Assembly: GCA_947177575.1 (NCBI GenBank)
Contig: CAMWVA010000007.1
Span: 1-50,455, forward strand
Source of the DNA: an uncultured Porphyromonadaceae bacterium
GTDB taxonomy: Bacteria > Bacteroidota > Bacteroidia > Bacteroidales > Muribaculaceae
Reading direction: 5' to 3'
DNA length: 50,455 bases
Below the pieces are notes generated by a model. That model searched no databases. It worked only from the letters and a program-made list of their open reading frames with translations, and was not told the origin of the DNA. Of this stretch, positions 11,855 to 49,947 are shown piece after piece. Within the stretch, counting starts at the first letter, position 1, and each line of letters opens with the position of its first letter. The position numbers and the translations under genes were made by a program.

Positions 11855-11863
11855 GATAAAATG

Positions 11864-11904: not shown

Positions 11905-11912
11905 ATACGGGC

Positions 11913-11943: not shown

Positions 11944-11994
11944 CCGCAGTATCCTAAAAACTATTGTTCAACTAAAGCTTAACACTCAAAAAAC

Positions 11995-30709: not shown

Positions 30710-30784
30710 AACAGTCAATCAGTGTCATGTTACAGCTAATGGTTAAATTCTTTCAATCATTAATTTTAATTATAATTAATAATT

Positions 30785-32371: not shown

Positions 32372-32372
32372 A

Positions 32373-33281: not shown

Positions 33282-34614
33282 CTACAGTCGTAATAAATAA
33301 AAGCTCTTTATGGTCGTTAAAATCTGTTTTTCCTGTATTGAAAAATCTGTGAGCACACTCATATACATGTGTGGTACCACATCTTTCAAGTATATGCTTA
33401 ATCTGTGCTAACGAAATTTTATTTTCAGAGGAACTGCTTTTGGAATTGTAAGTATTATTGTAAGAAACCACAATGTATCTGGCATTAAGACTTACAATCA
33501 GGTCTTCAAAAGCATTAATAGCTTTAGTAGTGCAATATCGACTCATATTTTCAGGAGCAGGTTTCATTGCAACACCATATAATTGAGGTTTATCCCACTT
33601 AACCAAGGTTTCATAAACATGATAAAAGCGACAATATTGGCGGGAATTATAAGGCGGGTCAATATAAGCAACATCTGCACGGAGCTCCTTTGCAAGCAAA
33701 TTAGAATCTTGTTTGAATATCCTAATATTTTCGTAGGATTCAGCTTCTATCATTCGCAAACGTAGTGTTTGGTGCTTTATGGGTTTCTTTATGTAGGCAT
33801 CAAAATGGCCAACAGTGTTTGCGTGCTTATCAATATTATATATTAAAGTAGCAATGAGAATGCAATACTCTTTGTCTGTAAGAGCAGATTTGCGTTTTTC
33901 AATATCATCTCTGATATATCCGATAAGTTTTGCTACATTCATTTCAAAATATTTATCTCCGTAATTCTCAGAAAAATAATTATGAGGTAAGTCATTAGGA
34001 TCTATTTCATTATAAAAATCCAAAATATCTCCGATTTTAACTTCATCATAATCGCCATCACTGAAGAATGCTTGGTAAATTATATTATTAGAATAAAGAA
34101 AATCGTTAGTAAAAACATAGTCAAAATTGGCTAACGCTGCCTTGGTTACAACACCGGTTCCCGCAAAGACATCAAAAAAAGTATGAACATCATGAGTCTC
34201 GCTTTTTATAGTGCTCATAATCCAATCAATCAATTTTGCCTTACTTCCGATATAACGCCTGCTTTCAAGCGCAATAGGCTTTGCGAATATAGCCTCAGCG
34301 AATAAAGATAAATATTTCGAACCATAGGTTACTTTGGCTTCCGCTGCCTGTAAAGCTTTAATTGCTATATCATGATCTGATATGTTCAGCTTACTGATAA
34401 TTTCATCACTTTGCTGTTGAATTAACAAAGTAGAGGTATCATCAAAACCGTAGACCTTTGCGAGTCTCAACACCTGGTCTGTTGTAGCAATACGTCTGCC
34501 ATTCTCAATTTTACTTAATAATGTAACATCAATATTCGAAGCTTCACTGACTGATTGAAGAGACAGTTGTTTTTCTTCACGAATGTGACGCAATATGTAT
34601 CCTAGAGTTATCAC
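33235..34614 (-). CDS. XRE helix-turn-helix fused to an N6-adenine DNA methyltransferase
   Basis: The 459-residue protein starts with a Cro/CI-type HTH (about 1-60: ILRHIREEKQLSLQSVSEAS and LLSKIENGRRI). A D12-like methyltransferase domain follows: RRYIGSKAKLIDWI (motif X), FFDVFAGTGVVTKAAL (motif I) and YIDPPYNSRQY (motif IV). It should methylate adenine on one strand of the restriction site. The HTH probably lets it repress its own operon promoter, delaying nuclease expression after entry into a new host; this control role is inferred from known MTase-HTH fusions. It is the first gene of the restriction-modification operon and lies just after a good promoter. Confidence 0.85.
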   Translation of the reverse strand: MITLGYILRHIREEKQLSLQSVSEASNIDVTLLSKIENGRRIATTDQVLRLAKVYGFDDTSTLLIQQQSDEIISKLNISDHDIAIKALQAAEAKVTYGSKYLSLFAEAIFAKPIALESRRYIGSKAKLIDWIMSTIKSETHDVHTFFDVFAGTGVVTKAALANFDYVFTNDFLYSNNIIYQAFFSDGDYDEVKIGDILDFYNEIDPNDLPHNYFSENYGDKYFEMNVAKLIGYIRDDIEKRKSALTDKEYCILIATLIYNIDKHANTVGHFDAYIKKPIKHQTLRLRMIEAESYENIRIFKQDSNLLAKELRADVAYIDPPYNSRQYCRFYHVYETLVKWDKPQLYGVAMKPAPENMSRYCTTKAINAFEDLIVSLNARYIVVSYNNTYNSKSSSSENKISLAQIKHILERCGTTHVYECAHRFFNTGKTDFNDHKELLFITTVDEELKRKSFTSLLCG

Positions 34615-34878: not shown

Positions 34879-35760
34879 TCAGTCTTCCTCAATGTCATTG
34901 TCTAACTCGTCGGGGTCGTTGTATAAATCGTCTTCCCGCAATAACTCGGCGAGACTATTCCATTCTTTTATCTTATTTTCATAGTGGGCTTTATCCTCTT
35001 CGCTTAGTTCGGGATGTTCTGATGTAAATTCCTCAAAACAATCAGCTATGGATTTGGCTCCTCGCCAGTCACCATAAATGTAAGCTGCTCTGAAGTATTC
35101 GATAGCCTTGTCATAATCTTTCTCACAACCGAGACCGTCGGCATATAGCCAGCCCATACGGTAGGAATATTCTTCCGGTTCAAGAGCTGTAGCCACCTCT
35201 GTCCATTTGAAAAGCTGTGCAAGCCATTCTTTATCATCAAGAGAATTCGGCATAGTCAATTCCCAATAATAGTCACTCAGTTTTCCGGCAGCTTCGGCAT
35301 TGTTATGAGCAATTGACTCATAATATTCAATTCCGATTTCAGGGTCTCCGCCCTGGGCCATATTCATGTAGTAATCACCGAGCCAAAGGCGAGCTGACTC
35401 CTGCCAGCGACTGTCAATCTCAGCGCACTTCTCATAAAAACGCTCCGCATCATATTGGTCATACTTCTGTCTGGAGCCGCCATCAGCCTGATCCGGAGTC
35501 TCAGCATTATCGCACATATAACCAAGCAGGTAATAGCCAAGTCCGTCACCGCCTTCAAATGCTGCTTTCTCTGCAAGTGAAAAGCATTTGTCTAAGTCAA
35601 CATCTACACCTATACCTTCATGATATATATAGGCCATAAGCCCGATAGTTTCCGGAGTCTCCGGAGCACTAAAAATCATCTCGGCAGCCTCCCGGCAAAC
35701 TTCAGGATTCTCCTCGTTGCCGGCAAGCATATCAATAAATTTATCTGTCAGTGTGGTCAT
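34879..35760 (-). CDS. Sel1-repeat (TPR-like) protein
   Basis: About 293 residues from ATG 35760; I reject the in-frame TTG at 35769, which lies upstream of the preceding stop. Two clear Sel1 repeats are visible: GLMAYIYHEGIGVDVDLDKC with LAEKAAFEGG, and GWLYADGLGCEKDYDKAIEYF with RAAYIYG. Degenerate repeats lie between them. Such solenoids bind proteins. There is no signal peptide and the C-terminus is very acidic (DDLYNDPDELDNDIEED). It follows the 274-aa gene after 1 nt and is the last gene of the chaperone/GTPase cluster's strand run. The function is probably an adaptor (inference). Confidence 0.65.
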   Translation of the reverse strand: MTTLTDKFIDMLAGNEENPEVCREAAEMIFSAPETPETIGLMAYIYHEGIGVDVDLDKCFSLAEKAAFEGGDGLGYYLLGYMCDNAETPDQADGGSRQKYDQYDAERFYEKCAEIDSRWQESARLWLGDYYMNMAQGGDPEIGIEYYESIAHNNAEAAGKLSDYYWELTMPNSLDDKEWLAQLFKWTEVATALEPEEYSYRMGWLYADGLGCEKDYDKAIEYFRAAYIYGDWRGAKSIADCFEEFTSEHPELSEEDKAHYENKIKEWNSLAELLREDDLYNDPDELDNDIEED

Positions 35761-35761
35761 A

Positions 35762-36586
35762 TTAGTCAAACCTTACTCGTGGGTTCATCTGTGAGGGTGA
35801 ACGCCACTCAATACCGTATTTATTCTTTAATATATCTTTCTTCGTACTCCAGATACGAAAACAGAGGCCCATGTGACGTGGCACACTCTGGAAACGTTCA
35901 TTCAACTCATCTTCAAGATCATAATAGATTTTTTCCCATTTACGTGTATATTCCACAGGGTCTTTTTTCAGATGGCCGATTTTCGGGTTAACCATAATAT
36001 GGGTAAGCTCCTCCTGAGTAAAAAGCTTGCTGATGGCAGTCTCAAACTCTTTATCCCATTCCTGCGCACGCCATGCGTCGTGCTCAAGAAGAAGGTTAAG
36101 TTTTAAGAGTTTCTTTGCCAAAGGTTTGATTGACTCATCATCCGGATTTTCACGTAATACGCTTCTGACATACATAAACAGAACCCTATACAAAGCGTGA
36201 TTATATACCGACTTTCCAAGAGCAGAACAGAATCTGGGAAGAGTTTCCTTATATATTTCTACTGGAGTCATGTTGTCGTACATCAGGCGTATAACACCGT
36301 TTGCCAATTCCTCCATAGGACGGTAATCATCAAGCTCCTCATACGCCTCAGCGAGAAGCACATAGAGTTGCAGAAGTGTCAGGTCATGACTGTGGTTATA
36401 AGCCTCTCTCTGAAGCATATCAATAAGAGAAGAATAAATGATAATATCCTTCTCATCCACCTCGTCGTCATTATCAGGCAAATTTCTCGGACTTAAGGCT
36501 AACGCCTCGTCCAGTCGTTCATCTATTGATTTTGAAGTGTCACTGACAATATCTTCAACTGTTTTTTTAAATTCGTACTGCTTCAT
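35762..36586 (-). CDS. helical protein of unknown function at the tail of the chaperone-GTPase cluster
   Basis: I do not recognise a family. The 274 residues are mostly helical and charged, with TPR-like A/L/Y spacing in LTLLQLYVLLAEAYEELDDY. The C-terminal part is basic (RIWSTKKDILKNKYGIEW). No signal peptide, membrane helix or catalytic motif is visible. It is paired with the Sel1-repeat gene (1-nt gap) and separated from the GTPase gene upstream by a 200-nt gap carrying a MITE-like insertion, so it may now have separate expression. Confidence 0.5.
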   Translation of the reverse strand: MKQYEFKKTVEDIVSDTSKSIDERLDEALALSPRNLPDNDDEVDEKDIIIYSSLIDMLQREAYNHSHDLTLLQLYVLLAEAYEELDDYRPMEELANGVIRLMYDNMTPVEIYKETLPRFCSALGKSVYNHALYRVLFMYVRSVLRENPDDESIKPLAKKLLKLNLLLEHDAWRAQEWDKEFETAISKLFTQEELTHIMVNPKIGHLKKDPVEYTRKWEKIYYDLEDELNERFQSVPRHMGLCFRIWSTKKDILKNKYGIEWRSPSQMNPRVRFD

Positions 36587-36650
36587 ATCTGTATCCTGAC
36601 GATAAAAAATTTATAGATTAGTAAAACACCGTAAAATCCGGTGTTGCTTA

Positions 36651-36783
36651 TGAGGCTGTTGCAAAACTCAATGACATAATACTTGTAAGGATATATATGT
36701 AATATATTAAATTGATAATCAATTACTTATATCAACATGCCAAAGGCATATCCCTACAAAGAGGGTATTTTGCAACAGCCTCA
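36651..36783. mobile_element. MITE-like element with 16-bp terminal inverted repeats
   Basis: The ends TGAGGCTGTTGCAAAA (36651-36666) and its exact complement (36768-36783) bound a 133-bp AT-rich segment without an ORF, which is the shape of a miniature inverted-repeat element mobilised by a transposase elsewhere. The terminal sequence resembles IS ends seen in Bacteroidales. It holds an ATGCC/GGCAT hairpin and a CCCTACAAA segment shared with the repeat at 34768-34844. I see no clear target duplication. Its right end lies 5 nt from the stop of the GTPase gene and could act as its terminator. A 7-bp hairpin (36625-36645) flanks it on the left. Confidence 0.65.
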
Positions 36784-36788
36784 CGTAA

Positions 36789-39320
36789 TTATATGTCTAC
36801 TCCCAATTTAGCGAGTACTTCCTTCAGTGTTTTCGGATCGGAAATATTCTTGATCGTCGTAACACCGAAGTCTACGTTTCTGAACTTATTGGTAGCCTGG
36901 TTTACAGTCTCAGCCAGACCTAATTCCTCCTCGATATATTGTCTCGGTGTCTTTCCGTCAAGATAACCGAGATCGCTTTTGGTCAGAAGAAAGAAGAAGT
37001 TTATATTCTTCAGTTTCCGTCCATGTTCCTCAAGGATAGAAGTCAGCCGTGAATAGGTACTTGCAGGCGAAGAATGTTCAGACTCGTTACGTGCCTTTAT
37101 CCATGCTTTTGCTTTAGGACTCACACCGGGCATAAGCGGGTCTACCATTGACGGGTCAATGATGAACACTATGGATTCGACATTCTTATAAAACTCCAAA
37201 GCGGTAGGAGTACGTGACACATTCGTATCAAAATTTTCACCTGCAACATCATAGAAGAACAGGTGCCATGGAACAGGTGATAATTTACGTGGCAGCATAA
37301 GCTGAACGGCTTTGAACCACTGACGCTGATCGGTCTGCACATTGGCACCTTTCTTAATACGGTCTGCTATAGCTTGTATCTCAGTATCCGGAGTGGTATC
37401 AGTCTGAGTTGCTTTGGTCTTACGGGTTATAATATCGAGTTCAGAGTAAAGGAAATAGGTCTTGCCGGATGAACGGTGCCCTACAATACCGATGTGTTTC
37501 TCCGTACCGAACGATTTTTTCCCGGTATGCTTCTCCAGATTCTTACAATTCTTACAACGGCGTTTCAGCTTGGCTTTGCCATTAAAAATCATGGTAGGAA
37601 GCCGTCTATAAGTATCAGGATTAGTCTGGTGGAACACTCCGTAAATACCCGGGTGAAGACCTACCGGATGCACATGGTAGTTATCAACCATATAATCAAA
37701 GCCTTTGGTAGACCCGCAGGACGGACACGGGCGTCTGACATTGTATATCTTCATTACCAGCCATTCAATACCCATAAGTATGCCCATAAATATTATAAGC
37801 AGAGTGGCTATAGCCATAAAGATAACAACAGGGCCGACAAACACGATAAGAAGCACATCCCAAAGATCTTTGAATATGTAGAGAGTCCAGTCAAAGAAAT
37901 TGAGATTGTTCATAAAATCGAAACCCCAGTCAACAGAGAGTTGGCCTGCTTTTGCTATAGCTTCTTTGTTAAGAATGATAAGACCGCCTACGATTCCGAA
38001 TATTATTGCGTATATCCAGTTTTCAAAGAAAAAGATAATGGCTAATATAAGCGCTATATAACCTACCCACACGAGTACAATCAGAAGAATCTTGAATAGC
38101 CAAAGTATACCATAGGCCAGTAACCCTACTGCTATTAGAGTCGCCATAGCTGCAAAAAAAGAAACTATGAGGCATCCTGTGAGTATAAGCACATTAATGT
38201 AAGGTTCCTTATTGAACATCCAGAGCCTTTCCATTCTACCTTTTCTATATGGTCGCCATTCATCGAGAGTCTCTGTATTTGCCAAAAACCATCGTATAGC
38301 TATCCACATATACACTCCGGTCAGAGCCAGAATCAGAAGATACAGCACCCATGACGGAGCATTCGACTTTGCATCTACAAGAGCAAAGCGATACAGAATA
38401 CTGTTCCAATAATTCTTTAGAAAACCGGCATTACTATCATTTGTATATTTGACATTGATTTCGGCGGTCTTTGTAGCCAGAACACTTTTGGGTGTTGTAT
38501 ATTCACGCTCAATAGTCTTGACATGTTTACCCCGACTGTTAAGCACGTTGGCTTTAGTCCAGTGACCGAAGGAGTCTATCTCATACTTATAGGTATATTT
38601 ATCAACAGGACTGAGTTTAGTCTTACTATTTTTTTTCTTCTTTCTATTATTACTCTTATTCCATTTGCTTATCTGAATTTCCTTTATGGTTCTACCGTCA
38701 TCGGCATAAGTCACTTCCTGTACATTGAGGTCTTGTGTAACCTTCATTCCGGAAAGAACAGGTTTTTTGGTATCCTTCTTATAATAATAATCGGTAACAC
38801 TCTCCTGTATCTTAGAAGACTTCCAGTCAATTCTCTGTTTGGGCACTTTATAACCATCTCCGACAGTGGTATAAACGAATTCTGTCCTTGGGTATCCACC
38901 TGATGCAGAGTCTGGATTATAGATAATGTTCGACAATTTTCCGTCACGCTCGTAACTTATCTTACCTTTGAAAGGATGAGAGTCTCCTGCAAGTGTCAGT
39001 TGCGGTTTTCCGTAAATGTCGTAAGTGGTTGAAAAGCCTGAAACTTTACCGTCAGGCAGCGAATCTATATCAGTTAGGATTCGGTCTCTATCATCGAATA
39101 CATATACGTGGGTTCCGATTAACTTACCTTTTGCATCATATATACGTTCGATACTTTGAATTACGGAGTCGGAAGCTGTAGGATACAGAAATCTTTTAAA
39201 AGGAACTATATCATCTTTTGCCACGGGCTTGAAATCGTCACCGCAGCCGGTCATACCGATAGCGACCAAGACCAGGCACAACAGCGACCATAGAGGGAGA
39301 GGTTTTATAAATCGCTTCAT
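36789..39320 (-). CDS. membrane-linked TRAFAC-type GTPase with lipoprotein-like N-terminus and YD-repeat-like domain
   Basis: 843 residues. The start has a lipoprotein signal (lipobox GMTGC, Cys 26). Residues about 45-280 are beta-repeats of YD/RHS-like type (ERIYDAKGKLIGTHV, TTYDIYGKPQLTL, TYADDGRTIKEI). About five membrane helices follow (322-346, 373-401, 404-432, 436-450, 486-520). Then comes a zinc-binding pair (CPSC 532-535 with CKNC 589-592). The C-terminal GTPase domain has P-loop GHRSSGKT (614-621), DVAGENF (691-697, switch II) and TKSD (780-783, NKxD equivalent). It resembles the 'double-GTPase' family of conflict systems and the GTPase encoded two genes upstream. An odd number of helices would put the GTPase in the cytoplasm and the repeats outside. 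It is the last tightly spaced gene of the operon. Confidence 0.75.
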   Translation of the reverse strand: MKRFIKPLPLWSLLCLVLVAIGMTGCGDDFKPVAKDDIVPFKRFLYPTASDSVIQSIERIYDAKGKLIGTHVYVFDDRDRILTDIDSLPDGKVSGFSTTYDIYGKPQLTLAGDSHPFKGKISYERDGKLSNIIYNPDSASGGYPRTEFVYTTVGDGYKVPKQRIDWKSSKIQESVTDYYYKKDTKKPVLSGMKVTQDLNVQEVTYADDGRTIKEIQISKWNKSNNRKKKKNSKTKLSPVDKYTYKYEIDSFGHWTKANVLNSRGKHVKTIEREYTTPKSVLATKTAEINVKYTNDSNAGFLKNYWNSILYRFALVDAKSNAPSWVLYLLILALTGVYMWIAIRWFLANTETLDEWRPYRKGRMERLWMFNKEPYINVLILTGCLIVSFFAAMATLIAVGLLAYGILWLFKILLIVLVWVGYIALILAIIFFFENWIYAIIFGIVGGLIILNKEAIAKAGQLSVDWGFDFMNNLNFFDWTLYIFKDLWDVLLIVFVGPVVIFMAIATLLIIFMGILMGIEWLVMKIYNVRRPCPSCGSTKGFDYMVDNYHVHPVGLHPGIYGVFHQTNPDTYRRLPTMIFNGKAKLKRRCKNCKNLEKHTGKKSFGTEKHIGIVGHRSSGKTYFLYSELDIITRKTKATQTDTTPDTEIQAIADRIKKGANVQTDQRQWFKAVQLMLPRKLSPVPWHLFFYDVAGENFDTNVSRTPTALEFYKNVESIVFIIDPSMVDPLMPGVSPKAKAWIKARNESEHSSPASTYSRLTSILEEHGRKLKNINFFFLLTKSDLGYLDGKTPRQYIEEELGLAETVNQATNKFRNVDFGVTTIKNISDPKTLKEVLAKLGVDI

Positions 39321-39351
39321 GTCTTGTTAGTATATTTTTCTTAATTTCTTT

Positions 39352-41562
39352 TCATTTTTTACCGAAGATGCCGGAAAACTTGCGTTTAAGCGATGCGCCG
39401 AATCCTGAATTCTGCTTTATAATATCAGCAATATTACGGTTAGATACCGAGGCAGCGAAACGTTCTATCTCCTCCTTATTTCCTTTAAATATTTTATCTA
39501 TAAGAATTACGACGGCATCCTGGCGGCTTTTGTCACTCGTTAATAGAGGCCAGCGGTAAGTTTCAAACCATTTGGCTAAATATCTGCCTGTACCAATCAA
39601 ATACAGAAAATTCATCTGATTAATGAAGTCTTCCTTCCTCTTGGATTGTTCCAGCCATTTTCTGATTATAGTTTCCGTATATTCGTTGTCCGGTCCATAC
39701 TGAGTAAAAACTTCATTTACCAATTTTGAATCGATACTGTCAGGAATACGTCTGTCAGCAACATCAGTTATAAGCTGAAGTTCTTTGCAAGCCATCTGAG
39801 TCAGCAGTCCCGGACGGTCAAGAAGATTCCTGACCTTATCATCGCGAAGAAGTTCACGTCGGCTATCTGTATCAGTCAGCCAGAATTCAATAATTTCAGG
39901 AAAACCTAATTTGATAAGTTCCTGATCTGACAGAGCGTTGAATGCCTGAAACCAAGTATTCATGTACTGCTTAGGATTATACAGTTCCTTAACAAACTTT
40001 GCCTTATCAGTCATAGGAGAAGCAGCTAAGTCGCTCATTACTTCAACAGGATAATCCGGCTTTCCGGGGACAGCTGTATAAGTCAGCATCTGACGCCATA
40101 CCTGAGGATTCTCGGCCATACGTAATGACTGCATGATTGTAGAATGAGGCACCTTCTGCTCCGATTCATTCAGAATGTACATAGCCGCGTCAAGCCGTTG
40201 GTTTTGCGAAGCATCACGGAACAGCTTATTGAGATATTCAGGATGTGCGAAAAGGCGCTCTGACACAAATCTGACTGACTCCGGAGTGATTCTTATCATA
40301 TCCGGTGTCTCACGACGCAAAGTATTAAGAATATCAAGTCCTTCACGTAGAGTATTGGCAGTGTATTCCGAATAGGGAGACTCGTAGAAATAGTCATTCA
40401 GATAAGTGTTGACCTTATTGTTAAGTAGCGACCGTTCATAACTACTGAGAGAATTTACACGTAGAAGTTGCACGATACGGTCAGCACTCAATTCACCCGG
40501 TCTGATAAAATCATCATGCTTGATAAGCATCGTGGTCCAGTAGGCTAACTCCGGATCTGGCTCATCAAGCCCACCATTGACGCAAAGTGCAATCGTTGCA
40601 TTACGACTAAGACTTATGTTATTATCGGCAAATTCACGTATATGACCAAACAGAGGAGATTCAAGCAGATTAACAGTTCTGGGAACAGAACCGGTATAAT
40701 CAACTACAATAAAAAACTCCTCATCTATGCGGGTAGTGTTCTGACTCGGTACCACAATCATGTCAAGGTCTTCAGGTACACCGGTATAATATAACGTATT
40801 AGCCTGAAATTGCAGATGCTGTGTAAGACTTACAGGAAGTTGTGAAAGAGTGTACAACAGGTCCGGAATCTGTTTGTCTTCAAGGCGTACCACAAGTTTC
40901 TTCGCTTCTGCGGTCTCATCTTTACCTGCATATTTGGAACGGTGCATCGCTGTCAGCAAGCCTAAGGCCACTTCTGTCAGAAAAGTACCGTTTTCATAAT
41001 CAGCCGGAGCGAAAGAAATCTTACCGGAAGGCAAGGGGGCTGGCTCTCCCACAAGAAGAGCGCGTATCTCGGTATTAGCCGGTGTAAGACGTTTATCTGC
41101 GGGGAGAAATTTATCCTGCCTTATCATAGCCGCAAGAGCTGTAATGTCAGGTCGCTCATTAAACACAGCTAAGTGTGCAATGTAATTGGAACCGTCACGG
41201 CGTGCCGAATCAATGTCGGCAAAGAAACCGTAATCACTAACCACATAGAGAGTACGTCCTACTACCCATACTTTCTTTCCATTACTCAGAGTCACTTCGC
41301 GGAATGTGTATAGTGACGGATAACGGTCCTCAATTAATGGAGTAGCCAGAATATCACTCTCCGTAGCCTTCTGAGCTGTGGGCAGAGAATAATTGACCAT
41401 AGCTGACTGCGCAATCTCAGCAGCTTCTTCTGAGGTAAGTCCCCGACTGTGGGTACGCAGACCGAAACCTGAAGCACCGGTATTTATAGATTTCTGAGTA
41501 GAACCCCAGATTATCTGCTCGTAAGGATATTCCTTCGGCCTGAAAGGATCGATAATAGTCAT
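39352..41562 (-). CDS. GTPase-associated protein 1 (GAP1)-like protein
   Basis: The 736-residue protein has at its N-terminus the beta-rich pattern of the GAP1-N module: QIIWGSTQ (about 16-23), GFGLRTHSRGL (32-42) and FREVTLSNGKKVWVVGRTLYV (about 88-108). A long, mostly alpha-helical remainder resembles the GAP1 middle and C-terminal parts. It sits between two related GTPase genes with gaps of 6 and 31 nt. GAP1 proteins were defined by comparative genomics as regular partners of TRAFAC GTPases in NTP-dependent conflict systems; direct GTPase-activating activity is assumed, not shown. No membrane helix or signal peptide. The family assignment rests on recalled motifs and context. Confidence 0.65.
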   Translation of the reverse strand: MTIIDPFRPKEYPYEQIIWGSTQKSINTGASGFGLRTHSRGLTSEEAAEIAQSAMVNYSLPTAQKATESDILATPLIEDRYPSLYTFREVTLSNGKKVWVVGRTLYVVSDYGFFADIDSARRDGSNYIAHLAVFNERPDITALAAMIRQDKFLPADKRLTPANTEIRALLVGEPAPLPSGKISFAPADYENGTFLTEVALGLLTAMHRSKYAGKDETAEAKKLVVRLEDKQIPDLLYTLSQLPVSLTQHLQFQANTLYYTGVPEDLDMIVVPSQNTTRIDEEFFIVVDYTGSVPRTVNLLESPLFGHIREFADNNISLSRNATIALCVNGGLDEPDPELAYWTTMLIKHDDFIRPGELSADRIVQLLRVNSLSSYERSLLNNKVNTYLNDYFYESPYSEYTANTLREGLDILNTLRRETPDMIRITPESVRFVSERLFAHPEYLNKLFRDASQNQRLDAAMYILNESEQKVPHSTIMQSLRMAENPQVWRQMLTYTAVPGKPDYPVEVMSDLAASPMTDKAKFVKELYNPKQYMNTWFQAFNALSDQELIKLGFPEIIEFWLTDTDSRRELLRDDKVRNLLDRPGLLTQMACKELQLITDVADRRIPDSIDSKLVNEVFTQYGPDNEYTETIIRKWLEQSKRKEDFINQMNFLYLIGTGRYLAKWFETYRWPLLTSDKSRQDAVVILIDKIFKGNKEEIERFAASVSNRNIADIIKQNSGFGASLKRKFSGIFGKK

Positions 41563-41568
41563 CGGGAC

Positions 41569-42744
41569 TTATTTTTTGAGAGGAAGTGGAAAATTGAGTT
41601 TATTTAAAATCCACACTAACGGGTCAAGTACTCTGAACGGATTCAGTTCGCCTGTCAGAGTGGTGCCTTTCGGAGCACTACCGAGGGCTGAAACCCCGAA
41701 AAAGCAGACATTCTTATCAGCGTCTTTCCAGTTATTGTCGATATTATTGATGAAGTCCGGCTGTCTCCATACTCTGTCGAGAATACTTTTGAGACTCTTA
41801 CTGTTCATCTCGAATTCCTTGAGATTTATACCGTCGCTCATCAGATAAGGGGAGTTAGTCTTCAGGCCGGCTATAGAACAATCCTGAAATCGCTCATCTC
41901 CGGAAGTAATGTAGTCAATTTTACTGAAAACAACTGCCATAGGTTTTGAGAACATAGCCTTGGCCTCTTCATTACCCTCCTGAAAATGACCTAAGAGAGC
42001 TGATAAAATAGAATCGAAACCGGTATCGGCTTTCGGTTTGCCGAGACGTTTACGCACTGCATCGATATTCTCTGTATCTATAAGGTATAGAATAGCATCC
42101 GATTTGGTAAGAAATTTCACATTCTCGGCAATATTAGCGGTCTGTCCGAAATTCTCACCCGCAGTATCGTAGAACACTAAATGCATTGATTCACCTTTAG
42201 GTGAAGTCAAAGTGAAAATCATCGGGATACGTGAGCGAAAATCGCCTACAGCAGTCTGATCGACACATCTGCTGTTATTATACAGGGGATTGTAAAAATC
42301 ATTCTTATAACGGTTTTCAGTCTGTAATTCGCTTTGTTCGGCCACATTCTTATACTCGAGACCAAGCCGGCCGAGCCTGTTGACATTCCTGCGCAGTTCT
42401 TCTATCAATACTGCTATATAGTTAGACTTACCACTGCTTCGTGCCCCCACGATAGAAATGATTTTACCACCGTTAAGCACCATGTCATTAGGTATCCTGT
42501 TATGACACTTAGGGCAAAGCATCATATAGGTTTTCTTTTTACAGTCAGGACATACTGCTGATTTCGGTGTACCGAATGACAGAAGTCCACGTTTCGGTAC
42601 TATAGCACGTCCCTGAGGATTTACAGGTGTAGGTCTCCAGAAATTTTTATATTTATCATCCTCCACTTTCTTGCAACGACACAGGAAATGTACGTTTGCG
42701 CTGTCGAACGATTCGAAACAATAGGGACAGGTGACTTTACTCAT
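41569..42744 (-). CDS. zinc-ribbon TRAFAC-type GTPase (double-GTPase 2-like)
   Basis: 391 residues. N-terminal zinc-binding Cys pairs are CPYC (6-9), CRC (22-24), CPDC (65-68) and CPKC (77-80). A GTPase domain follows with P-loop GARSSGKS (100-107), DTAGENF (193-199, switch II) and SKID (274-277, base recognition). The YDxAGENF switch and the GxRSSGK[ST] P-loop are shared with the membrane-linked GTPase, so the two are paralogues acting together. It appears soluble. It precedes the GAP1-like gene by 6 nt and follows the 876-aa gene after 12 nt, so all are co-transcribed. Confidence 0.8.
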   Translation of the reverse strand: MSKVTCPYCFESFDSANVHFLCRCKKVEDDKYKNFWRPTPVNPQGRAIVPKRGLLSFGTPKSAVCPDCKKKTYMMLCPKCHNRIPNDMVLNGGKIISIVGARSSGKSNYIAVLIEELRRNVNRLGRLGLEYKNVAEQSELQTENRYKNDFYNPLYNNSRCVDQTAVGDFRSRIPMIFTLTSPKGESMHLVFYDTAGENFGQTANIAENVKFLTKSDAILYLIDTENIDAVRKRLGKPKADTGFDSILSALLGHFQEGNEEAKAMFSKPMAVVFSKIDYITSGDERFQDCSIAGLKTNSPYLMSDGINLKEFEMNSKSLKSILDRVWRQPDFINNIDNNWKDADKNVCFFGVSALGSAPKGTTLTGELNPFRVLDPLVWILNKLNFPLPLKK

Positions 42745-42756
42745 GAGATTTTGAAT

Positions 42757-45387
42757 TTATGGGTTGTTGACTTCCGGTACAATTGTAAGCTGTGAGCTTA
42801 CAGAAAGCTCCACAGGTACGAGACGAAAATATAAATCATCTCCCTTTTCCGAAGGTTCGACAGTTATCTCGGCTTTACCGCTTCGCAAAGCACTGGCCTT
42901 TATAATAGCCGATGCCGGATGATTAATAAGGTCGGCAGGCGGAAAACCATCCTGTACCAGTACCTTCAGATCACATGGCAGATCACCTCCCGGTCCGGAT
43001 AAGGAAAGGATGTACTTGTTTGACTTCAGAAAACCGAATCTCTTTACTTGCGTTACTTTATCGAAGTTGATTATCATTGCCTTCAGAGTGAAGGACTTTT
43101 CGGTGCAAGGTCCTTCAAGAAGGCCTTCGGATGTATCAGCGACAGATTTTACAGACACACTTACAGAACCGCTCCCGTCAGGAACAGAAACATTAAAGAA
43201 TCCGGTCGGACCGGAACGGCTGATTTTCTGGCTGTGTACAGCACCGCCATCTAAGCTCCATTCCACCTTTGCCTGATCTGAAGCACCCCATTTCCATTTT
43301 AATGATATTCCGTTCTGTCCTCGGCTGATCTGAACAGAATCAAGAGCTGATACAGATGATACTTTAACGCCGTCGCCTACCACTCCTATATTCCCGGACA
43401 CAGTAACCGGAATAAAATAGTGTAGTCCGGTGAAATCCTTAGGCACAGTACAACTGTTGCCTGCCACATTAAGACGTTCAGCAGTAAAAGTATCAATTGA
43501 CACCACATCGTTACGGTTGACCTTAAAAGGTTTCGAGGAACGGTAAATGAATACCTGCCCTGTCTTAGGCGTATCCCAGCTAAGGCGGGCGTGAGAATTA
43601 TCTTCACTTAACGACAAAGACACTGCTTTCGGCTTTTCCTGTGGCATGGCACGCATCCTGACAGGATTACCCTTTACTGCACCTCCATGACCATCTCCGA
43701 ACACCGGAGTCAGAGTATAGTTATAAGCATTACCCTTTGAAAGACCGGGATCACGGAACGTCGTTCCGCTTGCAGTGGCCGGAGCTGTACCGTCACGACT
43801 GATTTCCATACCTGTCAGCCCTTTTAAAGGCGGCCATGAGAAAGTGACACTACTCTCGTCAACATTCATAGCAATATCAGCAGGAGCAAGTTGCTGTATA
43901 ATAACGGCCGGTACGGAAGTTGTACCGCAGGTAGCCGACATACGCCCGTTAATTTCTGCAAATACTCCGTAATAATATTCGGTACCGACAGCAGGAGTCG
44001 GGTCGTCAATAATAAGATTGGCTGTTTTGCCTACTACTTTTCCATCTTTCAGGGAAGTAGGCCGTGCTGACTCTCGGCGGACCACCGTATAGACCGCACC
44101 TTCGATAGGAATAGCTTTCCAGCTGATCGAAATAGTCTTATTCGTTACCTTTGCGGTAACAGCCTCCGGAGAAGGTACAGGCATTGAGTCAGCAGTCCGT
44201 TTTATCTTGATCATCAGCTCTTTGATAGCAGGATAGCCTGGCCATAAATCTTCTGCCTGAACCGCTAACTGTGAAGCGATATTAAGATTCTTACGCGCTA
44301 CGGCACTCTCAGCATCCGAAACCAACTGCAGAGCCCGGCGCATTCCTGTAAATGAAAATCCGCATCTTACACAACTCATATCCGCCGGTGCGGATTTCGC
44401 ACCGCATTTAGGACAGGTTATGTCGAGAGGCATGGAACAGTTACGGCAATGTCCGGCCTTACGGTCATTAAGCGCACCACAGAAGCGACATGTCTTTGAG
44501 GTGGCACTTACAGAACCGTCATCATACTGCATACCCAATTCCTGCGCCTTTGCAGCTATCAGACCTTGTGCAAGAGCCAGTTCAAGCCCGTTACGTGTAC
44601 ATTCATCGAGTAATTCCTTGTATAGGTCCGGTGCGATAAACTTTCTGTTTATAGAGGCCATCATGGTCATCTTCTCACCTACAGAATCAAAGCCTGCCTC
44701 ACGCAGAGCTTTGTCATATCCTTTACGCAGATTCTGATCGGAAATAAAATCCTGAATAGCTGACATGAGATGATGAGCCACATCCTTAGCCGGAGTACGC
44801 TGCACATCGACTGAATCAGCACGTGTCTTTGTTGTCAATACCTGTGAAAATCGGGCATGGTCAGCATCAGCAGGTATCCCTAAAAACTGATAAATATTCA
44901 GAAGGCCGAGCTTTTTCAGGTAACTGTTGATAGCATCCATACGTGCTTTGGGCAATGGCTTCACGCCGTCGTCATGAACAGGTTTCGCAACCGGAGCGGC
45001 AGTCCGTACTTTAGCACCTATAATATTCAGAATATCATTGGCAGACAAGCCTTTGGATTTGAATTTTCTTTCTACTGCCGTGAGCGCATCGGCATCGATT
45101 TCCATAGTGCGCTTATCTACGAATGTATTGGCAAAGTCACAAACCTCGCTTTTAAGTTCCTGTAGAATCTCATCGGCCTGAGATGTGATATAGGAAGGTT
45201 CATTCTGCACTCTGTCGATAGCCTGAGTAATGAAGTCGTTGATTTCAGTGTACTGCTCAGGTGTAATCATTCTGCGGTTACGCTTTCCCGTAAGATTCGT
45301 CTGTTCTTTTTTAAGAGCAGCCACAATTTTCTTAAGGTCACGTTCCGAAGGAGAAACTTTGGAAAGAGTAAATATATTATATGCCAT
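42757..45387 (-). CDS. J-like / zinc-ribbon / FN3 multidomain adaptor
   Basis: 876 residues. The N-terminus (1-125) is helical. Residues about 160-230 resemble a DnaJ domain in frame (IYQFLGIPADADHARF ... LMSAIQDFISDQNLRKGYDKAL), but the HPD tripeptide that stimulates Hsp70 is missing. Eight Cys in four CxxC pairs (300/303, 314/317, 325/328, 339/342) make two zinc ribbons. A short helical TPR-like stretch (350-395) is followed by at least three fibronectin type III-like domains (about 405-495, 500-585, 588-690) and a C-terminal beta domain. It is encoded directly after the two Hsp70 genes, so it is a plausible client or targeting co-factor of these. Function inferred from layout. Confidence 0.6.
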   Translation of the reverse strand: MAYNIFTLSKVSPSERDLKKIVAALKKEQTNLTGKRNRRMITPEQYTEINDFITQAIDRVQNEPSYITSQADEILQELKSEVCDFANTFVDKRTMEIDADALTAVERKFKSKGLSANDILNIIGAKVRTAAPVAKPVHDDGVKPLPKARMDAINSYLKKLGLLNIYQFLGIPADADHARFSQVLTTKTRADSVDVQRTPAKDVAHHLMSAIQDFISDQNLRKGYDKALREAGFDSVGEKMTMMASINRKFIAPDLYKELLDECTRNGLELALAQGLIAAKAQELGMQYDDGSVSATSKTCRFCGALNDRKAGHCRNCSMPLDITCPKCGAKSAPADMSCVRCGFSFTGMRRALQLVSDAESAVARKNLNIASQLAVQAEDLWPGYPAIKELMIKIKRTADSMPVPSPEAVTAKVTNKTISISWKAIPIEGAVYTVVRRESARPTSLKDGKVVGKTANLIIDDPTPAVGTEYYYGVFAEINGRMSATCGTTSVPAVIIQQLAPADIAMNVDESSVTFSWPPLKGLTGMEISRDGTAPATASGTTFRDPGLSKGNAYNYTLTPVFGDGHGGAVKGNPVRMRAMPQEKPKAVSLSLSEDNSHARLSWDTPKTGQVFIYRSSKPFKVNRNDVVSIDTFTAERLNVAGNSCTVPKDFTGLHYFIPVTVSGNIGVVGDGVKVSSVSALDSVQISRGQNGISLKWKWGASDQAKVEWSLDGGAVHSQKISRSGPTGFFNVSVPDGSGSVSVSVKSVADTSEGLLEGPCTEKSFTLKAMIINFDKVTQVKRFGFLKSNKYILSLSGPGGDLPCDLKVLVQDGFPPADLINHPASAIIKASALRSGKAEITVEPSEKGDDLYFRLVPVELSVSSQLTIVPEVNNP

Positions 45388-45405
45388 AGCGCAGAATAAT
45401 AATAA

Positions 45406-47481
45406 TTATTTTATACCCATACTGAATTCCTGTGCAATAGAAGAGAAAGCAGCATCGAGCTTATCTACAGATGTTAGAATACTCAGAGAATCTTTCGAAG
45501 ATATTTTTTGTAAAAATTTTTTATCGGCTTTGCCGAAACCTATCGCAGCAATCTGAATACCGTCGGCTTTAGCCTTTTCGGCCTCATCTATTGCCTTGTT
45601 CTTATGATCCCATATACCATCGGTAAGTATTATGAGAATACGATTGTCTGTGGGAGCCTGCAATAACTGTTTATGACATTTCTCAATCGGTTCACACGCA
45701 TTGCCATAACCGATACGGGCGGAATGAGTGTCTTTCTCAATTTCGGCCAATGCTGCCATAGCTTTTTCCGGATTAGACTCAAATGTACAGTAATTCATCT
45801 GTCTGTCTGAGAAACCCTGAAGCGTAATTAAAAAAGAACCTTCCGGTAACTGTCTGATAAACTCGGCAGTAGCCTTACATGCTTTTTCAATAGCACTACG
45901 CCAGCACATTGACCCGGATTCATCAATAGTCACTATTATAGACATCGGTACGAAGTTTGAGGCTTTAGGTGCTTCGTACAGCCAGCTGAGATCGTCTTCG
46001 AGTTCAACTTTTTCTACCTGAAGCTGCCGACCTGTATCGAGCTGCCGACCTTCGACAGAAATTATACCGTTGGCATCATAGCTGTAAGCTATCTCTATCA
46101 CAGCTCCGTCAGGATTATCTACATGTTCAATGCCGTGAAACAGATATTTCCCGACTACAAGGCATTTATCAATATCCGTTGATTCTCCCTGCGTCAGATA
46201 CACTGTCTGGATATTATCACTGCCGCGCCGTGTACGGAACTTAAGCCTGCGTCTGTCGGTGACAGGTATTTCTTTGTTTTTACGTATAATTATGGAATTA
46301 ACGTACTTTGAACCGTCCGAACTTATAGCTACAGTCCCGAGAGAATGACTCATCACATCGGCTATTCTTACTCTGCCGGCCAACTGAAAACGCGGGTCTT
46401 CTTTAGAACGGCCTCCGATAGCACCGAGCGACTCACGGGCCTTCATGGAAGCTACAATAGCTGCTCCGAGAGCTACCGCCTCATCGGCGTTAACTCCTGT
46501 CAAGGGACGTTTACCGGTCATCTCAGCAACCCATTCATATACCATCGGCATTCTTGTGGAGCCTCCCACAAGCAGAGCACCGTCAAGATCATGCCAGCCT
46601 AAGCCTGCTTCCGAAAGAATATTGTCGCATATAACCTGAGTGGTGTGAAGCAGAGTCTTTGTCAGCTCTTCAAACTCGGCACGTGTCACGGTATATTTCC
46701 GTCGCTCGCCGTTGCTGCGTACATTTATCACTGCCGAACTACGGTTTGACAACTGCTTCTTCAGATTTTCCACAGCGAGTGTAAGGTCTGAGAGGCCTTC
46801 CATATCCTCCTCAATATCATAACCGGTATCGGCCATAAACTTACGTGCGAGATGCTTTATGAGCATGTCATCAAAGTCCTTACCACCGAGTTCGTGGTCT
46901 CCTCCTGTAGCCAGTACTTTCAATTGTCCGCTTTCAATCTGAAGTACTGTAACATCGAATGTGCCTCCGCCTAAATCATAGACAAGAATACGGCTTCCTT
47001 CCTGACGATTGATACCATAGGTGATTGCAGCCGCAGTAGGTTCGTTGAGAATAGCTAAAACCTCAAGACCTGCTCTTCGGCCGGCTTCTACTGTCTGTGT
47101 ACGCTGAAAATCGTTGAAATACGCCGGAACTGTGATGACAGCTTTATGCACAGGTCGACCGAGTATCTCTTCGGCGCGTGCTTTAAGATGGGTAAGTAGT
47201 ATTGCCGAAAGCTCCATAGCTGAGAACTCCTTGTCTCCAGCCGTATAAGTATAGTCAGCCTGGCCCATGTAGCGCTTGAAAAAGAGAGCCACATCTTCTC
47301 CAAGTTGCAACATATCTTTAGCTTCGGCACCTGTTTTTACTTCACCGTCAGGCGAAAACCATACTGCTGAGGGAACCAGTTTCTCACCATAGCAATCGGC
47401 CAATACGGCAGGTTTGCCATATTGGTCGATTGTAGCTACAGCAGAATAAGTGGTTCCAAGGTCAATACCTATGAAATCCAT
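45406..47481 (-). CDS. Hsp70 ATPase with von Willebrand A domain in place of the lid
   Basis: 691 residues. Residues 1-~360 are an Hsp70 nucleotide-binding domain with the phosphate motifs DLGTT (7-11), DLGGGT (169-174) and VGGSTRMP (305-312). Residues ~365-495 keep the order of the substrate-binding beta domain (VRIADVMSHSLGTVAI onward). In place of the alpha-helical lid, residues ~512-691 form a vWA domain with the MIDAS motif DESGS (520-524), a following helix and LTDG (Asp 621). vWA domains bind proteins through a divalent ion. The combination suggests a chaperone that recruits or assembles a partner protein. It follows the first Hsp70 gene after 21 nt. Confidence 0.85.
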   Translation of the reverse strand: MDFIGIDLGTTYSAVATIDQYGKPAVLADCYGEKLVPSAVWFSPDGEVKTGAEAKDMLQLGEDVALFFKRYMGQADYTYTAGDKEFSAMELSAILLTHLKARAEEILGRPVHKAVITVPAYFNDFQRTQTVEAGRRAGLEVLAILNEPTAAAITYGINRQEGSRILVYDLGGGTFDVTVLQIESGQLKVLATGGDHELGGKDFDDMLIKHLARKFMADTGYDIEEDMEGLSDLTLAVENLKKQLSNRSSAVINVRSNGERRKYTVTRAEFEELTKTLLHTTQVICDNILSEAGLGWHDLDGALLVGGSTRMPMVYEWVAEMTGKRPLTGVNADEAVALGAAIVASMKARESLGAIGGRSKEDPRFQLAGRVRIADVMSHSLGTVAISSDGSKYVNSIIIRKNKEIPVTDRRRLKFRTRRGSDNIQTVYLTQGESTDIDKCLVVGKYLFHGIEHVDNPDGAVIEIAYSYDANGIISVEGRQLDTGRQLQVEKVELEDDLSWLYEAPKASNFVPMSIIVTIDESGSMCWRSAIEKACKATAEFIRQLPEGSFLITLQGFSDRQMNYCTFESNPEKAMAALAEIEKDTHSARIGYGNACEPIEKCHKQLLQAPTDNRILIILTDGIWDHKNKAIDEAEKAKADGIQIAAIGFGKADKKFLQKISSKDSLSILTSVDKLDAAFSSIAQEFSMGIK

Positions 47482-47502
47482 CTTTCAGTGTAATTAGCAA
47501 GA

Positions 47503-49095
47503 TTATATAAGTTTAATGCCAGTCACCTTAATCTTTTCCTGTGCTTTTTCAACTTCTGAAAGGGCATTCTGAAGCATCACCTCTATATGAGTTGATTTTC
47601 CGTTGCTGGAAGCATCGGTCACATCTACACTCAGAAGACCTGACTTATCAATATTTACAACCACATCAAGCGGTGAATCGGCAGGCAGATTCGGATTAAG
47701 AGGGAGTTCCTGATCAGCCAGTTTAGTGCAAGCATCTTCCGGTACATCCACTTCGTCAGAAAGGTCTTCGTAAAGTTCGATAAGAACAGCCTCCTGATTG
47801 GCTTCTACAGTTGTAGCTTTAAATTCAAAGTGATGAGGTACAGCAGTATTACGCATTACTATATTCTTAATACCGCTTACAAATCTCATAGCTACGGAAC
47901 GGCTCAGAACGTTCTCGATTTCGATCTTTTTCCCTGCGCGGCCTCCTATAGCTCCGAAAATGTTATTAGTTTCCGCAGCAGCTTTGGTTTCCGCATCTAC
48001 TAAAGGTTCACCGGAACCGTCTTCCTTCATAGCGTCACTGAAGGCAGCGAGATTAATACCATATATCGCAGCACCTTTAGCCACACTCTGGTTCGGGTCG
48101 CAGTATTCAATTGGCTTTCCGGGGAATTCAGCTTCGAGACGCTCCTTTACTTGTTTCATCATTGTCGAACCGCCCACAAGCAGAATTTTGTCAAAATCTT
48201 TTACTCCCTTAGCAGCCGCTTTTTCGAGAATATCTTTGGTGAAGCCCATCGTAGTATCAAGAAGGGCCTTAGTCATCTCATCAAATTTCTCGCGTGTCAG
48301 CTCAATACGCTCACTGTTGAATTTAATGATAGTTTTCTCTTTCTGAGTAAGCTGTTTTTTTGCATTCTCGGAACTGAGTTCAAGCTCGCCCATCATGTCA
48401 ATGTCATCACGTACAGATGCCGAGTCCTCGCCCGAAGCAGTACAGTATTCAGAAATCACATGGTCTATGATTTTGTTATCCCAGTCCTTGCCACCGAGCT
48501 CATGATTACCGCCGGTGACAACCATTTGGATTTTACCGTTCTCCACACGGAGCATAGTTATATCGAATGTACCGCCGCCAAGGTCATAAACAAGTACAGT
48601 CTGCGGCTGGTCAACATTGAGACCATAGCTGATAGCAGCAGCTGTAGGCTCGTTGAGGATATCAAGCACGTTAAGTCCTGCGAGTTCGCCGGCTGTCTTT
48701 GTAGCATTGCGTTCTTCCATACCAAAGTAAGCCGGACAGGTGATAACTACGTTTTTCACTTCCTCACCGAGCTGCTCGCTGGCATCTTGTGCAATCTTAC
48801 GCAGAATAATAGCCGATATAGCCTCAGGAGTATATTCCTTGTCAAAAGCAAAAAACTTATAGTCACGTTTACCCATCTGACGCTTGATAACAGAGCAGAC
48901 ATTTACCGGGTCAGTAGCTAATGTCTGTTTAGCCGATTCTCCGACAGAAGCGTTATCGCCCTCTTCAAAAGCTACTACTGAAGGAGTCACCGGAGATGCC
49001 TCGGAATTGGGTACTACCTCTGGTTTACCGAAGTCGTTTACATAAGCTATACAGCTATAGGTAGTGCCAAGGTCGATACCGAAAATCTTTCCCAT
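47503..49095 (-). CDS. Hsp70 (DnaK-like) with truncated lid
   Basis: 530 residues, about 100 shorter than a typical DnaK. The nucleotide-binding domain is complete: DLGTTYS (8-14), NEPTAAA (148-154), DLGGGT (171-176) and VGGST (307-311). The beta substrate-binding domain spans about 390-508, and only a ~20-residue helix remains of the lid. It is therefore a specialised Hsp70, not the housekeeping DnaK. It is encoded between a GrpE-like gene (60-nt gap) and the Hsp70-vWA gene (21-nt gap), forming a dedicated chaperone unit for the downstream GTPase proteins (inference). Confidence 0.9.
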   Translation of the reverse strand: MGKIFGIDLGTTYSCIAYVNDFGKPEVVPNSEASPVTPSVVAFEEGDNASVGESAKQTLATDPVNVCSVIKRQMGKRDYKFFAFDKEYTPEAISAIILRKIAQDASEQLGEEVKNVVITCPAYFGMEERNATKTAGELAGLNVLDILNEPTAAAISYGLNVDQPQTVLVYDLGGGTFDITMLRVENGKIQMVVTGGNHELGGKDWDNKIIDHVISEYCTASGEDSASVRDDIDMMGELELSSENAKKQLTQKEKTIIKFNSERIELTREKFDEMTKALLDTTMGFTKDILEKAAAKGVKDFDKILLVGGSTMMKQVKERLEAEFPGKPIEYCDPNQSVAKGAAIYGINLAAFSDAMKEDGSGEPLVDAETKAAAETNNIFGAIGGRAGKKIEIENVLSRSVAMRFVSGIKNIVMRNTAVPHHFEFKATTVEANQEAVLIELYEDLSDEVDVPEDACTKLADQELPLNPNLPADSPLDVVVNIDKSGLLSVDVTDASSNGKSTHIEVMLQNALSEVEKAQEKIKVTGIKLI

Positions 49096-49155
49096 GTTTA
49101 TTTATGATTTTTGTTATAACAGCCTCCGTTGCCTGAGAGCTGTTGTGATAATTTA

Positions 49156-49947
49156 TTATTTTTTAAGTTTATAAAGCTCCACTTTCTCCTGACGCAGAAT
49201 AGTTCCGTTCCATGCGTATCCGGGACGTATTTTCTTTGCCACCTTTCCGTCAAGTTTAGGATTATCAGTCTCCACCGTTCGTATCACCTGATGCAGTTTC
49301 CGGTCAAAAACCGGATTTTCCTCTTCGCTTATAAGTACATCGACTCCATTGTTCTCAAGCAGGTTTTCAAGATCTGCCGGAATGTTTCTAAGAGCTTTAT
49401 GAAGCTGCTCTGGAGTAAGCTTATCAATGCGCTCAAGAGTTCTGCGGTAATCGTCAAGAATAGATATCGTCTCAAGAACAAAAGGCTTAAGCAGCTTGGC
49501 ATAAAGATCATCTTTATATTTCGCCATTTCCGAGTACATCTTATCGAATAACTCTTCTTTCTGAGTAGCATATTTGAAATTTTCCTCAAGACCCGAACTT
49601 AAAGTCTCAACAGCTGCAGCAAGTGAGTCTATTTTCTTTTCAAGAGATTCGATTTTTGAGTCAATCCCGTAACTTTCGGTTTCAGAAGAACAATTTGTTT
49701 GCAGAGAGTCTTCTTCACTGTTTTCTTTAAGAGTTTCAGCAGTAAAAGTCAGCGTCTCAGGCTCCTCTTTCGGAATGTCATCATAGACAGTGGTTGCCTG
49801 TTCAGATTCAGAATCGGGTTCCTGTTGAACATCGGAGTGTGTATCGGAATTAGGCTGTGACGAAGATTGAGCAGGCTGAAGCACGAAGTCCTCTTCTTCA
49901 TCTTCAATACGATAACCATCGAAGGGAGGGGGCGTGGGAGCGTTCAT
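49156..49947 (-). CDS. GrpE-like nucleotide exchange factor with acidic N-terminal extension
   Basis: 263 residues. The first ~85 are acidic, Ser/Gln/Pro-rich and probably disordered. A long coiled-coil helix (about 88-140, with KIESLEKKIDSLAAAVETL) leads to a C-terminal beta head (about 205-263) in which NPVFDRKLHQVI...GKVAKKIRPGYAWNGTILRQ follows the GrpE pattern of FDP..HQAV, GxV and GY...G..LRPA. GrpE proteins dimerise and release ADP from Hsp70. The gene opens the operon and is followed by two Hsp70 genes. It diverges enough from standard GrpE that the role is assigned by pattern and context. Confidence 0.75.
   Translation of the reverse strand: MNAPTPPPFDGYRIEDEEEDFVLQPAQSSSQPNSDTHSDVQQEPDSESEQATTVYDDIPKEEPETLTFTAETLKENSEEDSLQTNCSSETESYGIDSKIESLEKKIDSLAAAVETLSSGLEENFKYATQKEELFDKMYSEMAKYKDDLYAKLLKPFVLETISILDDYRRTLERIDKLTPEQLHKALRNIPADLENLLENNGVDVLISEEENPVFDRKLHQVIRTVETDNPKLDGKVAKKIRPGYAWNGTILRQEKVELYKLKK

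Follow-up and report, generated by a model that had tools for sequence, protein, structure and literature searches.

A rare Muribaculaceae operon, probably of the GAP1-N2 GTPase class, with an Hsp70–vWA fusion protein

The systems centred on the GAP1-N2 domain, described by Kaur et al. in 2020 (PMC7159879), combine paired DO-GTPases with fibronectin-III (FNIII) proteins, and a role in defence has been predicted for the class. As far as the text of that paper goes, about 14% of GAP1-N2 neighbourhoods include HSP70 and GrpE, with a subset encoding a second HSP70 that, according to the authors, has no peptide-binding domain; the FNIII protein of this HSP70 theme – found predominantly in actinobacteria and firmicutes – is typically fused to DnaJ or TPR, and vWA domains occur in the tubulin and kinase themes. 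No HSP70–vWA fusion appears in that text (Figure 6 and the source data lie beyond it, and an example may be drawn there), nor do Bacteroidetes figure in its list of the main GAP1-N2 phyla. The literature searched contained neither a further Hsp70–vWA operon nor an experimental study of a GAP1/DO-GTPase system; two papers there use the names of these systems, PMC7159879 and a second in which they are mentioned once. Here we describe a seven-gene operon with such a fusion (minus strand, 36789–49947) from an uncultured Muribaculaceae bacterium. The 50,455-nucleotide (nt) stretch of DNA on which it lies, called the window below, is a complete contig (C7; CAMWVA010000007.1), and the upstream side of the operon is about 500 nt from the contig edge. 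The genes encode, in order, GrpE, Hsp70A, Hsp70B-vWA, a J-like/zinc-ribbon/FN3 protein, a DO-GTPase (GTPase1), GAP1 and a membrane DO-GTPase. The operon is very probably a GTPase-centric system of GAP1-N2 type and of the HSP70/GrpE class, in a one-family variant that carries a vWA domain in the lid place of its second Hsp70. The initial annotation of the window had suggested that an Hsp70/GrpE/J set in the place of the MoxR–vWA chaperone might be undescribed; the vWA fusion aside, the HSP70/GrpE theme in the text of PMC7159879 anticipates it, and what may be new is the fusion, which that annotation had already picked out.

The HSP70 profile of Pfam is matched up to position 507 of its 599 in Hsp70A and up to position 495 in Hsp70B, and both HSP70 and VWA are found in each of the eight Hsp70B relatives. 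Both system Hsp70s retain the β-part of the substrate-binding domain (SBDβ). All seven Hsp70A sequences end shortly after it, the lid thus being absent by length, and in all eight Hsp70B sequences the vWA domain begins at the position expected of the lid. Read by eye in an alignment with the genome's own DnaK (475 residues, cut at a contig end), the nucleotide-site motifs are retained in all 15 system Hsp70s, and the VLLLD linker is replaced in all of them. The DxSxS of the vWA domain – likewise read by eye, and taken by us to be the metal-site motif – is present in 8/8 Hsp70B proteins, that of the window being without the middle threonine. When a profile of SBDβ plus vWA was run against the PDB, 71 sequences matched; among the 60 of these 71 that were listed, none joins the two domains, since each had at most one passing stretch. 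Viral contigs contain 570 relatives of Hsp70B, and in the best 80 of the 570 no listed match extends beyond residue 508, so that all stop short of the vWA domain.

As to the origin of the two Hsp70s, duplication of the host DnaK is unsupported, Hsp70A and Hsp70B each forming one clade apart from it in a tree of 28 rows (which omits a decayed copy of the operon, L017, and a 1379-residue protein of locus L010, both described below). Hsp70B is joined there with an Hsp70 from a Rhodococcus plasmid, a join that carries a long-branch warning. A Gram-positive origin is suggestive only. The stretch after KRxMG, which we take to be a marker separating Gram-negative from Gram-positive proteins, is present in five Gram-negative-type DnaKs and missing from five Gram-positive ones and from all 15 system Hsp70s; however, the Variovorax and Nostoc plasmid Hsp70s, whose hosts are not Gram-positive, are likewise without it, which partly contradicts such an origin. 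As a separate observation, small Hsp70/GrpE/TPR clusters, which are dedicated Hsp70 sets of another kind, lie on plasmids of Rhodococcus (L019, 11598–18594, with an FtsK-like gene) and Nostoc (L020, 8218–14220, with a DnaJ gene), and their Hsp70 linkers also deviate from VLLLD.

The J-domain relation of the third chaperone component mostly escapes Pfam. Pfam DnaJ matches one of the eight J-like members (E 0.0053); a profile of all eight, run against the PDB, reaches structures of DnaJ (E 4.7e-6 at best), so that the label J-like, already used in the initial annotation, is correct, and it also reaches a fibronectin structure (E 1.3e-4). Pfam fn3 was found in three of the eight, the window's own protein not among them, and the double zinc ribbon (DZR) in all eight at E ≤ 1. 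The HPD tripeptide is absent from the J-like region of every member, other residues standing at that position; the one HPD found by pattern, at residue 268 in L058, lies outside the J-like domain. HPD-less proteins of J-like type have precedents, among them the regulator Pam16. Apart from the operon, the window's genome encodes another DnaK, GrpE and DnaJ, the operon GrpE being the second of the genome (the other is at G000:C41), and one further GrpE and at least one DnaJ over the cut-off occur elsewhere in all six host genomes searched (G705 and G636 were outside the search). These findings support a dedicated chaperone set in the operon, as had been proposed from the outset.

Both GTPases match DO-GTPase2 (PF19993, cut-off 27 bits), the soluble one with 38.2 and the membrane one with 34.8 bits, and the family was found in all nine membrane GTPases compared at E ≤ 1. 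A P-loop and DxxGE are present in 10/10 soluble and 9/9 membrane GTPases, and [STN]KxD stands at its usual place in all ten of the former and in six of the latter. The cytoplasmic GTPase has conserved N-terminal cysteine pairs, of zinc-ribbon type by sequence; cysteine pairs also occur in the membrane GTPase, which opens with a signal- or lipobox-like start and has a further region between this start and the membrane segments. Five of the nine membrane GTPases (alignment A7) begin with what we presume to be a lipobox-like pattern. An extracytoplasmic sensor of YD-like type had been suggested for this protein: a part ahead of the membrane segments is borne out, and its YD/RHS-like character found no Pfam support in the membrane GTPases. 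Two copies hold a second membrane DO-GTPase, the first being without the N-terminal region: in L060 it lies at 10634–13105 (824 residues, lipobox-like start), and in L059 at 3–1349, running off the examined stretch. SH3_3 matches two of the nine, presumably those of L010 and L011, two loci of another system type.

The GAP1 protein of the window, taken alone, scores 21 bits against GAP1-N2 (PF20013), under the cut-off of 24 (E 3.7e-4), and 26 bits in the genome search, where it was read with its neighbours in frame. Among ten related proteins GAP1-N2 was found in all at E ≤ 1 (best 5.9e-11) and GAP1-M in three, and through these relatives the initial naming of GAP1 held, as did, by profile searches, that of the GrpE, Hsp70, Hsp70–vWA and GTPase families. 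A structure model suggests that the C-terminal part (about residues 303–728) may be all-helical. Scans of the operon proteins with NCBIfam and PADLOC added nothing decisive.

The gene order on which the initial annotation had built its reading recurs, as far as the contigs reach, in all nine copies examined in the neighbourhoods of related genomes, which represent at least three genera. It is complete, with open frames, in six of them (the window, L055, L056, L057, L058 and L059); in L016 and L060 contig ends truncate the operon, and the genes present are in order. L017 (2463–12856; counted with G705:C49 as one genome) keeps the order in a decayed state: Hsp70A is frameshifted, two in-frame stops interrupt the J-like gene, and a deletion has taken the 3′ part of GAP1 along with the 5′ part of the next gene, that of the membrane GTPase. 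Among the aligned copies – L017 was left out of alignments A2–A9 – identity to the window is 49–99% for Hsp70B, 51–98% for Hsp70A, 33–81% for GrpE, 28–93% for the J-like protein, 37–98% for GTPase1, 22–82% for GAP1 and 33–71% for the membrane GTPase.

Searched with a query of SBDβ plus vWA (311 residues), 226 of 397 genomes of the host family gave matches. Those in eight of the 397, the window's genome included, cover residues 1–307 or more, at E 3.7e-60 or better and with 38–100% identity; among the other matches listed the best has E 7.7e-7, and all are of partial coverage and fall mostly on the DnaK-like part. The Hsp70–vWA operon is rare and patchy in its family. Among 393 genomes of the order and 395 of the phylum, a profile of eight Hsp70B-vWA proteins matched the window's own genome only (E ≤ 1e-20); no more than five first-look candidates were scored in each genome, so that a miss is not proof of absence. 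A four-row GAP1 profile matched the own genome only among 395 phylum genomes, and with the window GAP1 three of 61 relatives gave a match, namely the own genome, G006 and G027, of which the latter two carry the other system type. PF20013 was found in two of 296 genomes, the own and G314; in the latter, from another family of the phylum, a GAP1-N2 protein lies beside a GTPase1-like gene (L061, 1533–4902) on an 8.4 kb contig in which no Hsp70 was matched.

Between the window and L016, the ratio of non-synonymous to synonymous change (dN/dS) is 0.016 for GTPase1, 0.037 for Hsp70A, 0.044 for Hsp70B-vWA, 0.055 for the J-like protein, 0.183 for GAP1 and 0.205 for GrpE; the membrane GTPase stands outside this comparison, L016 having no copy of it. 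Because synonymous sites have clearly diverged between the two (pS 0.15–0.42), the near-identity of the Hsp70s reflects selection and not recency alone; between the window and L055 these sites are saturated. Conservation is unevenly spread within the signalling proteins. Across nine rows of GAP1, 24 of 27 invariant residues fall within positions 1–261, and residues 28–320 of the membrane GTPase share 177 of 283 positions with L055 and 52 of 257 with L056, against 192 of 237 and 100 of 236 in its GTPase part (pairwise identities, the L059 and L060 rows having no sequence in the N-terminal region). To judge from the sequences, this pattern would fit a fixed switch with changing recognition surfaces.

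The nine open reading frames of the minus strand lie as first annotated (Table 1), and the gaps of 6–60 nt among the first seven are confirmed, being 60, 21, 18, 12, 6 and 31 nt from GrpE onwards. A gap of 202 nt separates the membrane GTPase gene from that of a helical protein, which overlaps a Sel1-repeat gene by 8 nt. These two genes do follow on the same strand, as noted at first, but they are accessory: they are present only in the window copy and in L017 (L016 is cut before that place). Since they were not found in L055–L060, where the helical protein had no phmmer match at E 0.01, a nine-gene unit was rejected and the unit is taken to be the seven genes.

Table 1. Operon genes and their domains, with the two accessory genes that follow, in window coordinates
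Feature	Position	Strand	Basis
GrpE-type nucleotide exchange factor, 263 aa	49156..49947	-	Pfam GrpE 65 bits
Hsp70A, 530 aa: nucleotide-binding domain and SBDβ, no room for a C-terminal lid	47503..49095	-	Pfam HSP70 340 bits, alignment
Hsp70B-vWA, 691 aa: nucleotide-binding domain, SBDβ, vWA in the lid place	45406..47481	-	Pfam HSP70 386 bits, VWA 46 bits
vWA domain of Hsp70B, residues 515–674	45460..45939	-	Pfam VWA 46 bits; motif by eye
J-like/double zinc ribbon/fibronectin-III protein, 876 aa	42757..45387	-	Pfam, PDB profile matches
J-like domain without HPD tripeptide, about residues 163–228	44704..44901	-	PDB profile matches to DnaJ
Double zinc ribbon, residues 300–343	44359..44490	-	Pfam DZR 25.2 bits, just below cut-off 27.3
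Cytoplasmic DO-GTPase (GTPase1), 391 aa; GARSSGKS, DTAGE, SKID	41569..42744	-	Pfam DO-GTPase2 38 bits
GAP1, 736 aa: GAP1-N2 domain 41155–41520, then variable, probably all-helical C-terminal part	39352..41562	-	Pfam, low-confidence model
Membrane DO-GTPase, 843 aa: lipobox-like start, variable region 27–320, hydrophobic segments 322–526, cysteine pairs, GTPase domain 609–803	36789..39320	-	Pfam DO-GTPase2 35 bits
Helical protein, 274 aa, accessory	35762..36586	-	no Pfam match
Sel1-repeat protein, 296 aa, TTG start, accessory	34879..35769	-	Pfam Sel1 42 bits

Further along the window, positions 30028–34614 encode a nucleotidyltransferase/HepT-like pair, a restriction enzyme of AlwI type and two D12 methyltransferases, of which one carries a helix–turn–helix. 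The guanine-plus-cytosine (G+C) content of this restriction–modification stretch is 34%, that of the operon 44% and that of window positions 1–30000 46%. The island of restriction–modification and toxin–antitoxin genes that had been noted beside the operon is real; yet no copy other than that of the window was seen to have such neighbours, whose G+C also departs from that of the operon, and the defence-island argument was therefore rejected as weak. Seven of the eight other copies gave 10 flanking proteins for a scan, eight with a Pfam family and two without (the flanks of L059 were outside it). On the side of mobile elements, no relative of the membrane GTPase was found in plasmids; GTPase1 matches two Rhodococcus plasmids, one of which was examined and showed no Hsp70 in the vicinity of the match.

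From the components, their nucleotide motifs, their co-conservation and the loss of canonical coupling features, all of them observed, we infer how the partners may bind, how the vWA domain may serve as a peptide site, and what may trigger the system and form its output. In the explanation that we prefer, and that as a whole we regard as about evenly balanced, the membrane DO-GTPase would be lipid-anchored, with its variable domain exposed outside the cytoplasm, and would form a two-GTPase switch with the soluble DO-GTPase, read by the conserved GAP1-N2 domain; recognition would fall to the variable helical part of GAP1 and to the J-like protein, through its FN3 arms. Once the switch is on, the J-like scaffold would load the two lid-less Hsp70s, which would act as nucleotide-gated clamps that assemble and hold a complex and would not refold proteins, with the vWA domain as a second, metal-dependent peptide site and GrpE resetting the clamps; the target would probably be a protein derived from an invader or from a damaged envelope. 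The mechanism at its centre – a membrane-linked GTPase switch by which a dedicated clamp of lid-less Hsp70s on an FN3/J-like scaffold would be gated – is offered tentatively. A chaperone-gated switch, the reading given in the initial annotation, is conceivable. Defence is plausible, and an anti-phage role in particular is judged somewhat less likely than not. It is improbable that Hsp70B-vWA represents a new kind of Hsp70, with the lid replaced by a metal-dependent vWA clamp and the cycle driven by a GAP1/DO-GTPase switch in place of an HPD-bearing J-protein, such that GTP signalling at the membrane would gate an Hsp70 assembly machine.

Several results weigh against the preferred explanation. 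No known effector enzyme or pore was recognised among the nine proteins by Pfam or PADLOC, and of a variable effector module only variable protein ends were observed, the sole PADLOC result being a weak P-loop match to mad8 (E 9.8e-4). No gene has a dN/dS above 1, and no restriction or toxin–antitoxin family was found by Pfam among the 10 flanking proteins. The collections of phage, viral and plasmid sequences hold no relative of GAP1, and there is therefore no sign of mobile carriage. [STN]KxD was not found by pattern in the membrane GTPases of L059, L060 and L011, which makes GTP specificity unsure in these three, and the structure model of GAP1 is of low confidence, with a mean predicted local distance difference test (pLDDT) of 49 and a predicted template modelling score (pTM) of 0.34. 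Some of the same features would suit a switch for envelope stress or maintenance and not defence, in which damage to membrane or wall would be sensed by the membrane GTPase through its outer domain and the Hsp70 set would stabilise envelope proteins. The lipobox-like start, the membrane segments and the variable part ahead of them speak for it, as do the genes beside several other copies, which are metabolic or housekeeping ones, and, from the parts of PMC11237479 consulted, a protein of the DO-GTPase family that some pspF operons encode and that is predicted to act in membrane-related stress; but an operon in only 8/397 family genomes, with one copy decayed as expected of a dispensable accessory system, sits poorly with maintenance, and we consider this reading somewhat unlikely.

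Lid-less Hsp70s, the loss of HPD and a private GrpE would equally suit holding and assembly, so that the set might be an assembly chaperone dedicated to one partner – the membrane GTPase, for instance, or a surface structure – with the GTPases as assembly checkpoints. That the core recurs with different flanks, and that the scan of the 10 flanking proteins recognised nothing structural or related to secretion, renders this quite improbable. A chance neighbourhood of chaperone and GTPase operons, or an artefact of annotation, has nothing in its favour beyond the unusual combination; it is refuted by the conserved gene order, the same in six complete, two cut and one broken copy under purifying selection, and is scarcely credible. 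The operon matters in that a compact seven-gene module under strong purifying selection, with a vWA domain physically tied to an Hsp70, provides a concrete test case for GAP1/DO-GTPase systems, and in that it raises the question of whether an Hsp70 without the lid and the usual linker, and with an HPD-less J-like partner, can be controlled by GTPases.

Set beside known systems, the operon differs from the canonical DnaK–DnaJ–GrpE machine, whose Hsp70 and GrpE domains it shares, in its Hsp70s forming clades of their own, in the altered linker (VLLLD in 0/15), in the missing lid (0/15) and in the lack of HPD (0/8 J-like regions). With the MoxR–vWA ternary systems, as presented in the text of PMC7159879, it has in common an NTPase chaperone joined to a vWA domain, but no MoxR AAA+ protein was found by Pfam among its nine proteins. 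CoCoNuT systems (PMC11090510, known to us from part of its text) likewise bring a GTPase together with the Hsp70-like CnuD and a TerY-type vWA within a single operon for which defence is predicted; here no McrB or McrC family was matched by Pfam among the nine proteins, and, whereas the CoCoNuT Hsp70 homologues have a degenerate Walker A-like motif and usually keep the B-like one, the nucleotide-site motifs look kept. Within the GAP1-N2 class, the tubulin theme has a likely Bacteroidota counterpart in two same-genus genomes, G006 (L010, 7172–20000) and G027 (L011, 2980–11141), with GTPase, GAP1 and membrane GTPase in the same order as in the window but no match to GrpE or Hsp70–vWA in the stretches examined; L010 also encodes the 1379-residue protein, which has no Pfam match and, by eye, an actin/Hsp70-like phosphate motif, and a weakly Tubulin_2-like one (E 0.0041). 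Closest of all is the HSP70/GrpE theme, which, going by the text of PMC7159879, shares GAP1-N2, the zinc-ribbon and membrane DO-GTPases, an FNIII protein with a J-type domain, HSP70, GrpE and, in a subset, a second HSP70. That second HSP70 is described as lacking the peptide-binding domain in the theme, whereas here it retains SBDβ and gains a vWA domain; the J-like domain is here without HPD (a motif for which PMC7159879 was not searched); and the host belongs to Bacteroidota in place of the mainly actinobacterial and firmicute hosts of the theme. What sets the operon apart within a known predicted class is thus the fusion, the lack of HPD and the group of its host, and the altered linker, too, is a feature that does not appear in the text of that paper.

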